From contig NZ_FOXI01000003.1 in NCBI RefSeq assembly GCF_900115675.1, positions 124,001 through 188,000 on the forward strand: a stretch of 64,000 nt of DNA, read 5' to 3'. Below are positions 22,958-58,234 of the stretch, in pieces (position 1 is the first letter of the stretch; every line of letters begins with the position of its first letter). Under the pieces are notes generated by a model that was not told the origin of the DNA, did not search any database, and saw only the letters and a program-made list of their open reading frames with translations. Source of the stretch: Halolamina pelagica. Its GTDB lineage: Archaea; Halobacteriota; Halobacteria; Halobacteriales; Haloferacaceae. Made by a program: the position numbers and the translations under genes.

Positions 22958-24621
22958 GCGACGGGTCGGCGGACTCCCCGACGGTCGAGCGCCTCGACGA
23001 GGCGACGGTCGACCGGATCGCCGCCGGCGAGGTGATCACCCGGCCCGCACGGGTCGTGGGCGAACTGCTGGACAACGCGCTCGACGCGGGCGCCGACTCG
23101 ATCCGGGTCGAGGTCGACGGCGACGGCACCGAACGGCTCCGCGTCGCCGACAACGGCCACGGGATGAGCCGTCGGGACGCCGAACGGGCGGTCGAGCGCC
23201 ACGCGACCAGCAAACTCCGGGACGCCGACGAGCTGCCGGCGACGACCAGCCTCGGCTTCCGGGGCGAGGCGCTGCCCAGCATCGCCGAGGCGGGCCGGCT
23301 CGAACTGGTCACCAGCGACGGCAGCGAACACGGAACGCGGCTCGTCGTGGACGACGGCGAGGTACAGGTCACCGACGCCGGCCGGGCGCGCGGGACGACG
23401 GTGACAGTCCGGGACCTGTTCGCGGACCGCCCGGCACGGCGCGAGTCGCTGGGCGGCGCGGGCGCGGAGTTCGCGACGGTCTCCTCGCTGGTCGCGCGCT
23501 ACGCGCTCACGCGTCCGGACGTGTCGTTCTCGCTCGTCCACGACGGCCGCGAGGTGTTCGAGACGCCCGGCAGCGGCGCGTACGCCGACGCGCTGGCGGC
23601 GGTGTACGACCGCCACGTCGCCGCGCGGTCGACGACGTTCTCCCACGAGACGGCGCTCTCGGCCGGCGAGTTCGACGGGGCGACGATCCACGTCGACGGC
23701 GTCCTCGTCTACCCCTCGACGACGCGCTCGGACCGCTCGCACCTCCGAACCGCGATCAACGACCGGCCCGTCGTCGACGAGGGGATCCGCCGCGCGACCG
23801 AGCGCGGCTACGGCACGCTACTACCCGATGGCCGGCACCCCGTCGCGGCCGTCTCGGTCTCGCTGCCGCCCGAGAGCGTCGACGCGAACGTCCACCCCGC
23901 GAAGGCCGAGGTCGCGCTCTCGGTCCGCGACGCCGTCGAGGCGGCGGTCGAGACGGGCGTGAGCGACGCGCTCACCACTGCCGACCTCCGCCGCTCGGGC
24001 GAGGTGGCGATGGGGCTGGACGAGTCGCTCGCGCCCAAAGCGGGCGACTCCGCGCTTGCCGAGGCCGACGTTGTCGGGCAGTTCCGGGAGACGTACGTCC
24101 TCTGTGCGGAGGGCGACGAGCTGCTCGTCATCGACCAGCACGCCGCCCACGAGCGCGTGAACTACGAGCGCCTGCAGGCCGCGGTCGCGGGCGAAGCGAT
24201 CGAACGGGCCGACCTCTCGCCGCCGGAGACGGTCTCGCTCTCGCCCGGCGAGGCTGCGGTCGTCGAGTCACACGCCGACGACCTCGCGGCGCTGGGGTTC
24301 GACGCCGACCCGTTCGGCGGCACGACGGTGAAGCTCTCGGCGGTGCCGGCGCCGATGGGGTTGCCGGCCGACGCCGGGGCGTTCCGGGAGACCCTCGCGA
24401 CGCTGGCCGGCGGCGACGATCCGGCCGACGCCCGCGACGACGCGCTCGCTGCGCTGGCCTGCCACCCGTCGTTGAAGGCCGGCGACGCGCTGGACGCCGA
24501 CGACGCGCAGGCGCTCGTCGAGCGGTTGGGGCAGTGCGAGCAGCCGTTCGCCTGCCCGCACGGGCGGCCGACGGTGCTCAGCGTCAGCGAGGAGACGCTA
24601 GCGGCCGGGTTCGAACGCTAG
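22954..24621 (+). CDS. mutL: DNA mismatch repair protein MutL
   Basis: A 555-aa GHKL-ATPase and nicking endonuclease. The N-terminal ATP site has GELLDNALDAGA (general-base Glu and Mg-binding Asn both present), DNGHGM and GFRGEAL. The C-terminal domain carries the metal-binding endonuclease motif DQHAAHERVNYE, matching DQHA(x)2E(x)4E, at about 394-405. The CPHGRP motif near 534 completes the active site. It therefore belongs to the strand-nicking MutL class, as expected where MutH is absent. The start ATG overlaps the mutS stop. Confidence 0.96.
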   Translation: MSDGSADSPTVERLDEATVDRIAAGEVITRPARVVGELLDNALDAGADSIRVEVDGDGTERLRVADNGHGMSRRDAERAVERHATSKLRDADELPATTSLGFRGEALPSIAEAGRLELVTSDGSEHGTRLVVDDGEVQVTDAGRARGTTVTVRDLFADRPARRESLGGAGAEFATVSSLVARYALTRPDVSFSLVHDGREVFETPGSGAYADALAAVYDRHVAARSTTFSHETALSAGEFDGATIHVDGVLVYPSTTRSDRSHLRTAINDRPVVDEGIRRATERGYGTLLPDGRHPVAAVSVSLPPESVDANVHPAKAEVALSVRDAVEAAVETGVSDALTTADLRRSGEVAMGLDESLAPKAGDSALAEADVVGQFRETYVLCAEGDELLVIDQHAAHERVNYERLQAAVAGEAIERADLSPPETVSLSPGEAAVVESHADDLAALGFDADPFGGTTVKLSAVPAPMGLPADAGAFRETLATLAGGDDPADARDDALAALACHPSLKAGDALDADDAQALVERLGQCEQPFACPHGRPTVLSVSEETLAAGFER

Positions 24622-24710
24622 CCGGTCGGGGCGCGTGACCCGCCGCGACACGGAGGTCGCGTTGACGGAGCCGATGCCGTGGTCGTGTGTGAGAGATCAG
24701 GGCCGCGCGC

Positions 24711-33847: not shown

Positions 33848-33851
33848 CACC

Positions 33852-33920
33852 GATCACGGCTCGCGACCCGCGACGGCCTCCGTGCCCCGGCGACAGAGCC
33901 CACGCCGCGGCTGTGTAAAA
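33852..33920 (+). repeat. Nested stem-loop element, degenerate copy (element A)
   Basis: Starts 5 bp after the aIF2 stop. It shares with the copies at 43.42 and 58.06 kb the GCGACC box (33863-33868), a loop CTCCGT (33878-33883) flanked by GGC/GCC, and a GTGTAAAA tail. The outer stem is weak (ATCACGGC to GCCGCGGC), and the CGGAG downstream has decayed to CAGAG. Nothing else is seen in the rest of the gap to 34037. Confidence 0.5.
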
Positions 33921-41939: not shown

Positions 41940-42096
41940 CGTGATGGCGTAGTGTCGGATTCGGTGGTAAGTCTTCGCACTCACACCCGCGAGACCGCAG
42001 GAGACGGCCGTATTTGCCGGCACCGTTCGGGGCGTCGTCGTCGGCAACCATCGGCGCCCCGGAACGCCTTTGGACCGCCCTCACACACGCCGGAAC

Positions 42097-43416
42097 ATGG
42101 ACGGATTCGACGCCGCGATCGGGCGCACGTGGACCGACGAGACGCCGGGGGCGTTCCTGACCGACCTGACGGCCATCGGGAGCCGGATGGGCGGCAGCGA
42201 AGGGGAGGCGCGGGCCGCCGCGATCGTCGCCGACGCGTTCCGCGACGCCGGGGTCGAGGACGTCGCGCAGGACCCCTTCGAGATGCAGGCCTGGCACCGC
42301 GGGGACTCCTCGCTCCGCGTCCGATCGCCGGTCGAGCGGGAGTTCGAGACGGTCGCGCTTCCGTACTCACCGGCCGGCGAGGTGGAGGGCGAACTCGTCG
42401 ACGCCGGCTACGGCACGCCCGAGGAGATCGACGAACTCGACGTCGAGGGGAAGATCGTCGTCGCCTCGACGACGACGCCGGAGGGCGGGCGGTTCATCCA
42501 CCGGATGGAGAAGTTCGGCTACGCGGTCGGCCAGGGCGCCGCGGCGTTCGTCTTCGTCAACCACGTCCCCGGCCAACTGCCGCCGACGGGATCGCTCACG
42601 TTCGGCCGCGAGGCCGAGGCGCCCGCGGTGGGCGTGAGCAAGGAGACCGGCGCGTGGCTCACCGAGTTCGCGGCGGACGACACCCGCGTGCGGCTGACCG
42701 TCGAGGCCGAGACGACGGCGGGTCGGAGTCAGAACGTCCAGGGCCGACTCGGCCCCGAGACCGAGGAGGAACTGCTCCTGCTCGCGCACTACGACGGCCA
42801 CGACATCGCGGAGGGCGCGCTGGACAACGGCTGCGGGGTCGCCACGGTGCTCACCGCCGCCCGCGTGCTGGGCGAGGCCGAGGCCGACCTCGACCGCGGC
42901 GTGCGCGTCGTCGCCGTCGGCTGCGAGGAGGTGGGCCTGCTCGGCGCCGAACACCTCGCCGAGTCGGTCGACTTCGACGACGTGGCCGCGGTGGTGAACG
43001 TCGACGGCGGCGGCCGGTTCCGGGACCTGATCGCGCTGACGCACACCTCCGAGTCGACGGCCGCGGCGGTCGAGCGCGTGAGCGAGCGCGCGAACCACCC
43101 CATCGAGGTGGAGTCGGATCCCCACCCCTTCAGCGACCAGTGGCCGTTCGTCCGCGCGGGCGTGCCCTCGGTCCAACTCCACAGCGACAGCGGCGAGCGG
43201 GGGCGCGGCTGGGGGCACACCCACGCCGACACCCGGGACAAGGTCGACGAGCGGAACCTCCGGGAACACGGCGTCCTGACCGCGCTGCTGGTCGATGAAC
43301 TGGCGTCGATGGACGCGGACCGACTGGAGGAGGAGGAGCTGGCCGAGGCGTTCCGGGAACTGGAGTTCGAGACGGGGATGAAGGCGGCGTCGTTGTGGCC
43401 CGAAGGGTGGGAGTAG
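42097..43416 (+). CDS. M28 family metallopeptidase
   Basis: A 439-aa aminopeptidase-type M28 protein with an inserted PA-like segment (about 90-190). The two-zinc ligands can be placed: His/Asp in LLAHYDGHDIAEGALDNGCG, the general-base Glu in GCEEVGLLG, Asp in NVDGGG, and the last His in WGHTHADTRDK. There is no signal peptide, so it probably acts in the cytoplasm. ATG 42097 (MDGFDAAIGRT) was chosen over one nine codons upstream. Its stop is followed within 5 bp by two nested stem-loop elements. Confidence 0.85.
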   Translation: MDGFDAAIGRTWTDETPGAFLTDLTAIGSRMGGSEGEARAAAIVADAFRDAGVEDVAQDPFEMQAWHRGDSSLRVRSPVEREFETVALPYSPAGEVEGELVDAGYGTPEEIDELDVEGKIVVASTTTPEGGRFIHRMEKFGYAVGQGAAAFVFVNHVPGQLPPTGSLTFGREAEAPAVGVSKETGAWLTEFAADDTRVRLTVEAETTAGRSQNVQGRLGPETEEELLLLAHYDGHDIAEGALDNGCGVATVLTAARVLGEAEADLDRGVRVVAVGCEEVGLLGAEHLAESVDFDDVAAVVNVDGGGRFRDLIALTHTSESTAAAVERVSERANHPIEVESDPHPFSDQWPFVRAGVPSVQLHSDSGERGRGWGHTHADTRDKVDERNLREHGVLTALLVDELASMDADRLEEEELAEAFRELEFETGMKAASLWPEGWE

Positions 43417-43420
43417 AACC

Positions 43421-43482
43421 AACCACGGCTTGCGACCTGCCGCGCGCTCCGTCGCGCGGCTGCGGAGCGTAATGCCGTGGTT
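43421..43482 (+). repeat. Nested stem-loop element B1
   Basis: Outer stem AACCACGGC (43421-43429) pairs with GCCGTGGTT (43474-43482). Inside are the GCGACC box, an 8-bp inner stem GCCGCGCG (43439-43446) with CGCGCGGC (43453-43460), loop CTCCGT (43447-43452), and CGGAG (43463-43467), which is complementary to the loop. The tail is GTGTAACC. It begins 5 bp after the M28 peptidase stop. Confidence 0.7.
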
Positions 43483-43511
43483 GTGTAACCAACCACGGCG
43501 CGCGAAGCCAG

Positions 43512-43568
43512 TCACGGGGAGCGACCGGCGACGGCCTCCGTGCCGTCGTCGCGGAGCGGACCCCGTGA
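43512..43568 (+). repeat. Nested stem-loop element B2
   Basis: A second copy in tandem. Outer stem TCACGGGG (43512-43519) pairs with CCCCGTGA (43561-43568). It has the GCGACC box (43521-43526), an inner stem CGACGGC (43529-43535) with GCCGTCG (43542-43548), loop CTCCGT (43536-43541) and CGGAG (43552-43556). A direct repeat AACCAACCACGGC precedes B1 (43417) and recurs between B1 and B2 (43487). Confidence 0.7.
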
Positions 43569-43585
43569 ACTGCCGAGATCGCGAC

Positions 43586-57812: not shown

Positions 57813-58058
57813 ATGCAACTGGAGGCCATCCGGACGGCGGAGGGCGAGACCGTGTACGTCGACTCCACCGACGGCGAGAAGGGGTCGAAGGGGATCTTCT
57901 TCGTCGCCTACGTCTCCGAGGCGGGCGAGGAGCGCTGGGGCTACTTCTGTGGGAACTGCGAGACGACCGACAACGCGGTGGACCCGATGGGCCGGATCGA
58001 GTGCAACGTCTGCGGGAACGCGAAGAAGCCGGACGAGTGGGACGCGGCGCACGAGTGA
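57813..58058 (+). CDS. DUF5816-like zinc-ribbon protein
   Basis: An 81-aa haloarchaeal protein: a beta-hairpin-like first half (GETVYVDSTDGEKGSKGIFF) and a C-terminal zinc ribbon with FCGNCETTDN and CNVCGNAKKPDEW. No catalytic motif. ATG 57813. Its stop codon is embedded in the first arm of a nested stem-loop element, so the element lies at the 3' end of its mRNA. The role is unknown. Confidence 0.65.
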   Translation: MQLEAIRTAEGETVYVDSTDGEKGSKGIFFVAYVSEAGEERWGYFCGNCETTDNAVDPMGRIECNVCGNAKKPDEWDAAHE

Positions 58059-58119
58059 ACCGCGGCGCACGACCAGCCGACGACCTCGTGTCGTCGGCAC
58101 GGAGACTTCGCCGCGGTTC
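58057..58119 (+). repeat. Nested stem-loop element C1
   Basis: Outer stem GAACCGCGGCG (58057-58067) pairs perfectly with CGCCGCGGTTC (58109-58119). An inner stem GCCGACGAC (58076-58084) pairs with GTCGTCGGC (58090-58098), loop CTCGT. ACGGAG lies at 58099-58104, and CACGACC replaces the GCGACC box. It overlaps the DUF5816 stop codon. Confidence 0.7.
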
Positions 58120-58129
58120 GCACGAATAA

Positions 58130-58184
58130 TCTCGGCGAACGACCGCGGTGACCTCCGTGTCACGGGTTCGGAGACTCTGCCGAG
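58130..58184 (+). repeat. Nested stem-loop element C2
   Basis: Outer stem TCTCGGC pairs with GCCGAGA near 58130-58185. Inner stem GTGAC (58148-58152) pairs with GTCAC (58159-58163), loop CTCCGT (58153-58158), CGGAG at 58169-58173 and an ACGAGTAA tail. It is tandem with C1; the two lie between convergent genes. Confidence 0.65.
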
Positions 58185-58234
58185 AGTTTCACGAGTAACC
58201 GACGGCGTACGGCTTGCCCCGCGCGCCGCCGCGC

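Follow-up and report, generated by a model that had tools for sequence, protein, structure and literature searches.

Several described systems share part of the design of the elements reported here. Eukaryotic SECIS elements and other tandem-G.A hairpins of the 3'-UTR consist of two helices, an internal loop with tandem G.A and a fixed apical loop. Integron attC sites are imperfect hairpins that combine fixed boxes with variable stems and lie right behind the stop codon of a gene. The bacterial REP and BIME elements of the GTAG and CGTC types are multi-copy palindromes near genes, which sometimes touch the stop codon and form mosaic or tandem groups; a link to RAYT genes defines the GTAG REPs, while the CGTC REPs are without RAYT (PMC3733652). 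REPs of E. coli that lie within 15 nt of a stop are reported to downregulate translation (PMC12306157, with reference to earlier work). Finally, hairpin-cluster terminators of bacteria place several successive hairpins behind the stop at operon ends (PMC8355165). Hairpins in 3'-UTRs and palindromic repeats are known as such, but the structured 3'-UTR repeat family presented below matched nothing described.

The window, a stretch of 64,000 nt from the Halolamina pelagica genome (G000), carries an M28-family peptidase gene (42097–43416, + strand, from the ORF list and a codon-based gene call; Pfam PF04389, E=1.1e-37), for which an alternative start is possible at 42070 and whose stop codon is the TAG at 43414–43416. 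Immediately 3' of this stop and in sense lies unit 1 (43417–43486, +), which scored 85.9 bits with covariance model R1 and gave a fold z-score of -5.2 against shuffles. Its outer stem pairs CAACCACGGC with GCCGTGGTTG, the outer arms being AACCACGGC (43421–43429) and GCCGTGGTT (43474–43482), and it contains the boxes GCGACC (43432–43437) and CGGAGC (43463–43468) and the inner-stem loop CTCCGT (43447–43452). Unit 2 (43506–43575, +; 68.3 bits; fold z-score -4.7) repeats this plan with a different outer stem, TCACGGGG (43512–43519) and CCCCGTGA (43561–43568), with GCGACC at 43521–43526, the loop CTCCGT at 43536–43541 and CGGAGC at 43552–43557. The two units are separated by a remnant, the truncated 5' arm of a third unit (AACCAACCACGGCGCGCGA, 43487–43505, +), recognised as a direct repeat. 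Two copies of one architecture of stems, GCGACC, CTCCGT and CGGAG, in sense and right behind the peptidase stop, had been claimed from the letters alone by a sequence-only reading, and both are present as described. The pattern GCGACC-N6..12-CTCCGT-N6..12-CGGAGC matched twice in the window as compared with no match in 100 shuffles; when slightly wider gaps were allowed, the 3.16-Mb genome as a whole gave five matches, and the reversed control pattern gave none. Sequence comparison showed a matching unit pair with a similar truncated arm in H. rubra (L035), and the truncated arm is therefore probably older than the split between that species and this one. The M28 peptidase orthologue in G004 also carries an array.

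Besides this pair, the window holds four further units at three places, all on the + strand. One unit (33848–33916; 53.4 bits) directly follows the TGA of the gene for translation initiation factor IF-2 (aIF5B type, Pfam), and the orthologue in G006 has an array at the same gene. Another (58054–58122; 46.2 bits) overlaps the TGA of a DUF5816 gene (gene call and Pfam) and is followed by a second tandem unit (58124–58191; 38.7 bits); an orthologous array was found in G006. The last is a diverged unit (24620–24688; 44.7 bits), the first two bases of which are the last two of the mutL TAG (gene call; Pfam MutL_C).

Model R1 was built from 37 units, and neighbouring species supplied dozens of extra copies. 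At least 67 units were detected with it in the H. pelagica genome, and all seven Halolamina genomes carry the element, with lower bounds that range from at least 18 to at least 100 units per genome; E-values are rough. Outside Halolamina, a sample of the family covering 28 genera yielded a single match in one genome, and a shallow order-wide covariance scan of 293 genomes from 87 genera, in which 17 candidates per genome were scored, yielded no match outside the genus. A strict pattern searched in ~85,000 named species genomes was present only in Halolamina rubra, H. salifodinae, H. pelagica and one Rhodococcus, the last of which we judge to be a chance match, and viral contigs had no match to it. 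No unit reached the gathering threshold of any family in Rfam release 15; a SymR match under the gathering score, inside truA, was taken as chance. The open-licence papers on Halolamina and haloarchaea contained no account of such repeats. These results define an element family of ~69–70 nt, apparently undescribed before, of which almost all Halolamina genomes carry tens of copies.

Stop-docked arms were also compared in three other genera. Arms of at least 8 bp that start 0–6 nt after stops were not in excess in G016 and G060; the counts were only 9 of 94 against 5% in G018, and 10 of 78 against 3% in Halolamina (small samples throughout). Analogues in the three other genera were rejected on that comparison.

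The consensus of the units, read from the stop, is RCC-RRYCACGGC-NN-GYGACC-N9-CNCCGK-N9-NC-GGARC-N4-GCCGTGRYY-GTGTG. It comprises an outer stem of 10 bp, an internal loop with tandem G.A, an inner stem of 9 bp and the loop CNCCGK. When the 37 units were aligned freely with MAFFT, 15 of the 22 pairs displayed double changes, and 154 double-changed cells were counted as compared with 41 after shuffling and no more than 26 after sliding the partners by 1–3 columns; 76 units aligned to the model gave 342 against 103. The sequence-only reading had proposed a selected structure of no recognised class, and had made its RNA-structure idea depend on further copies in the genome and on covarying stems. 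With at least 67 copies, covarying stems and no Rfam family, that proposal held.

The internal loop has the form 5'-GY-GA-S / S-GA-RC-3', where GA/GA is nearly invariant and the flanking pairs covary (C-G to T-A, C-G to G-C), and this combination is the signature of predicted tandem G.A pairs. Such pairs exist on the sense strand only, as the opposite strand would show C.T mismatches. A kink-turn is marked by tandem G.A beside an unpaired 3-nt bulge; this motif was rejected, since the third base of the supposed bulge is paired with the other strand and covaries with its partner (C-G 50, G-C 6). The sequence-only reading had also suggested that CGGAG pairs with the CTCCG loop, as a pseudoknot or a competing hairpin. 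This idea failed, because the variants CCGAG and CGCCGT/CTCCGG occur without a matching change in the partner; the CGGAG-side box is instead opposed to the 5' box, GY-GA-S against S-GA-RC, through the tandem G.A mismatches.

Inner stems contain 71 G-U pairs as compared with 23 A-C mismatches (p=7e-7, in a model alignment slightly biased to G-U), and this excess, together with the sense-only tandem G.A, argues for a folded sense RNA. Of the RNA and the DNA cruciform that had been offered as alternatives, the RNA is thus favoured, and a cruciform in double-stranded DNA is unlikely because both features are specific to the sense strand. A site acting at the DNA level, that is, a cruciform or single-stranded DNA hairpin to which a protein binds, would agree with stems that are strictly Watson-Crick in 88% of their cells and with an outer stem that has no excess of G-U over A-C (59 vs 50). 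Against the inner-stem G-U excess, the strand-specific tandem G.A, an orientation tied to the gene and the docking on stop codons, we regard it as highly improbable.

The position of 119 arrays from five genomes was determined with our own codon-based gene caller on genome stretches, which may misplace starts and miscall short genes. In 87 of the 119 arrays, the last base of a sense gene's stop falls at unit position 0–5, mostly at position 2, and the outer stem of these stop-docked arrays starts 1–3 nt after the stop. Among the remainder, the stop lies inside the unit in four arrays, and the others are farther off or have no detected sense gene; about a quarter of the arrays do not adjoin a detected stop, and 6 of the 52 arrays in G000 and G001 lack a sense gene upstream. 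Exceptional units at L107, L121 and L128 follow another hairpin repeat that is itself close behind the stop. Units at L110, L126 (14648, +), L133 and L134 have no called sense gene before them; they lie 40–44 nt upstream of a divergently oriented gene and are exceptions to the 3'-UTR rule.

All three stop codons, TAA, TAG and TGA, are found before units. The stop is native to the gene: PCNA ends in ...APRIQSE/D and IF-2 in ...DPFWGK whether the element is present or not, and these identical ends ruled out, for both genes, an element that supplies the stop or truncates the gene. The mapped arrays lie between genes, often between convergent ones, and a co-directional next gene is never less than 15 nt from an array behind a called sense gene (median 97 nt). 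Since the next genes are convergent or at least 15 nt away, the units are located at the ends of transcription units. The carriers are mostly core genes, including MCM, PCNA, HerA, archease, SOD, pyrophosphatase, L15e, ATP synthase B, aconitase, HMG-CoA synthase and a Hef-type nuclease, and, within the window, MutL, IF-2 and the M28 peptidase. The MCM helicase gene of this species, at L107:250–3924, contains an intein with a LAGLIDADG domain.

This location is what would be expected of a signal for transcription termination or 3'-end processing used in place of the ordinary archaeal U-tract terminator, and T-rich sequence often directly follows the same native stop in sister species that have no element, as at several IF-2 and PCNA orthologues. 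The unit, however, has no U-tract of its own, and a stretch with at least 5 T in 8 nt was found within 60 nt behind 24% of the arrays, which equals the 24% of ordinary terminal genes; U-tracts are therefore neither contained nor clearly replaced, and replacement was rejected. Archaeal termination is also ascribed to U-tracts with aCPSF1 (PMC8716108 and PMC7515710). The units share their successive hairpins behind the stop at operon ends with the bacterial hairpin-cluster terminators (PMC8355165), but differ in having fixed sequence boxes, covarying stems and no U-tract. We hold the terminator reading to be unlikely.

The close docking could also indicate a translation brake, in which termination or recycling is slowed by a hairpin no more than 15 nt from the stop and the gene yields less product as a result. 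The distance of 1–3 nt falls in the 15-nt range reported in PMC12306157, from earlier work, for REP downregulation in E. coli, and both kinds of element place a hairpin within that range. The Halolamina units are docked far more tightly, and have a fixed loop, a G.A internal loop, arrays and housekeeping carriers. Good expression is to be expected of many of these carriers, which as core genes (L15e, ATP synthase B, SOD, IF-2) form an odd set to brake, and a brake leaves the tandem arrays, the conserved loop and the G.A motif unexplained. A translation brake is therefore a doubtful explanation.

Tandem arrays have a period of 69–75 nt, most often 72 nt. Their linkers (for example TTTTGA and CAGTA) match the last bases and the stop of their own gene at 3.53 of 7 positions, as compared with 3.05 for other genes, which was above 1000 of 1000 random draws. 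Given this resemblance to the end of the adjoining gene, the arrays probably grow by a tandem duplication that takes in the stop. Arrays were present in at least two species at 29 orthologous gene clusters, some of which may merge paralogues, and orthologous arrays were more alike (0.74) than others (0.66). Among 5773 pairs of dispersed copies, a single one was at least 90% identical, and recent dispersal was rejected on this count. From these comparisons, the history of the family reads as vertical inheritance with compensatory change, with no sign of recent dispersal. The IF-2 array is intact in G000 and G006, and an apparent decayed unit (CCCAGCCCCCACG...GAAGCGTGATACCGCGACGGTGTAACGCC) stands behind the IF-2 stop in G001 (L257). 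The PCNA array occurs only in G000 among the three Halolamina genomes viewed. Several genes, PCNA and IF-2 among them, do without the array in sister species, so the element is not essential at each site.

High copy number and a mainly extragenic position are shared with REP elements, given at least 67 units in G000 and the mapped arrays between genes. No GTAG or CGTC tag was found at the end of the palindrome, and the consensus ends in RCC...GTGTG. The Halolamina unit further differs from REP and BIME elements in its length (~70 nt vs 20–40 nt for REPs), its archaeal host, the missing RAYT linkage, stems that are unrelated between copies but covary, and its sense orientation to the adjoining gene. 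A search for RAYT (PF01797) gave no match in G001 and G002 (the latter 79% complete) and only fragments in G004, and mobility through RAYT was set aside since two genomes that hold units have no such gene.

A REP- or MITE-like selfish repeat would nevertheless account for a multi-copy, genus-restricted, tandem element whose presence varies among species. Copies would have been scattered by a past hairpin-recognising transposase, with the best survival just behind genes, and the structure would have been kept by the enzyme rather than by the host. REPs near genes are common and those of the GTAG type can provide a stop codon (PMC3733652); a REP-like second repeat family, bounded by CGTC, is found in the same genomes. 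A repeat without host function would likewise be consistent with the genus restriction and the variable copy number. The near absence of closely similar dispersed pairs and the greater likeness of orthologous arrays argue against such a repeat, and G001 and G002 have no Y1 transposase and G004 has only fragments, yet these genomes hold at least 18, at least 70 and at least 63 units, respectively. Boxes and shape are common to the copies and stems are not, and random insertion would not be expected to give a sense orientation with docking on native in-frame TAA, TAG and TGA stops. The selfish repeat is hence possible but improbable.

The second Halolamina repeat consists of twin perfect hairpins with loops of 3–4 nt and a TGCCA joint, bounded by CGTC...GACG and found in either orientation, as in CGTC-GACGAGAGCGAAGCTCTCGTC-TGCCA-ACCAGAAATCGGAGATTTCTGGT-GACG; it is like the dimers of CGTC-type REPs. 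It was seen at L107:3941, L121:4021, L165:1442–1566, L176:1465–1517, L212, L281 and L285, and also inside stop-docked (type-A) units at L171, L187, L213, L214 and L217. At L203:1369–1494, L213:1566–1690, L214:1425–1549 and L217:1381–1505 of G006 it is nested in the inner hairpin of stop-docked units, which it stretches to ~125 nt with the boxes on either side intact.

The overall plan of two helices, tandem G.A, a fixed loop and a 3'-UTR position is shared with SECIS elements. The Halolamina units differ from these in their haloarchaeal host, in a loop CNCCGK in place of the SECIS apical A motif and in having no recoded UGA: all three stops precede units, and the protein ends are native in the two genes checked. 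Integron attC sites share the imperfect hairpin, fixed boxes, variable stems and adjacency to the stop, but the Halolamina units are dispersed along the chromosome and retained at orthologous core genes rather than placed in gene-cassette arrays. Their base reads CCRRYCACGGC/GCCGTGRYYGTG and does not carry the attC core sites RYYYAAC/GTTRRRY.

On balance, we consider it moderately likely that these are Halolamina-specific, cis-acting RNA elements of the mRNA 3'-UTR, folded in sense and docked on the stop, whose action at the 3' end of the mRNA is coupled to translation. Each unit would fold as sense-strand RNA into a two-tier hairpin with its outer stem 1–3 nt past the stop, the fixed loop CNCCGK and the G.A motif would be read by a protein, and the element may thereby mark and protect the 3' end of the mRNA; a role at the transcript end is possible. 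The 5' arm of the outer stem, at about +1 to +13, would be covered by a ribosome standing on the stop, in its mRNA channel, so that the stem could fold only when the stop is vacant. Folding would then compete with termination, which favours a translation-coupled 3'-end element. More speculatively, and with little confidence, the terminating ribosome may hold the outer stem open, while at a vacant stop a dedicated RNA-binding protein would recognise the G.A and loop site displayed by the fold and determine the fate of the mRNA, with tandem copies as a tunable dose.

Structured 3'-UTR signals of archaea are poorly known. In this family each genome provides tens of natural replicates; arrays of different length can serve as a dose series made by nature, and sister species supply the empty-site controls. 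Although these structured RNAs are limited to one genus, their carriers include core genes such as PCNA, MCM, IF-2 and L15e. It opens the question of whether a structure that starts inside the footprint of the terminating ribosome controls 3' ends, decay or termination in archaea.
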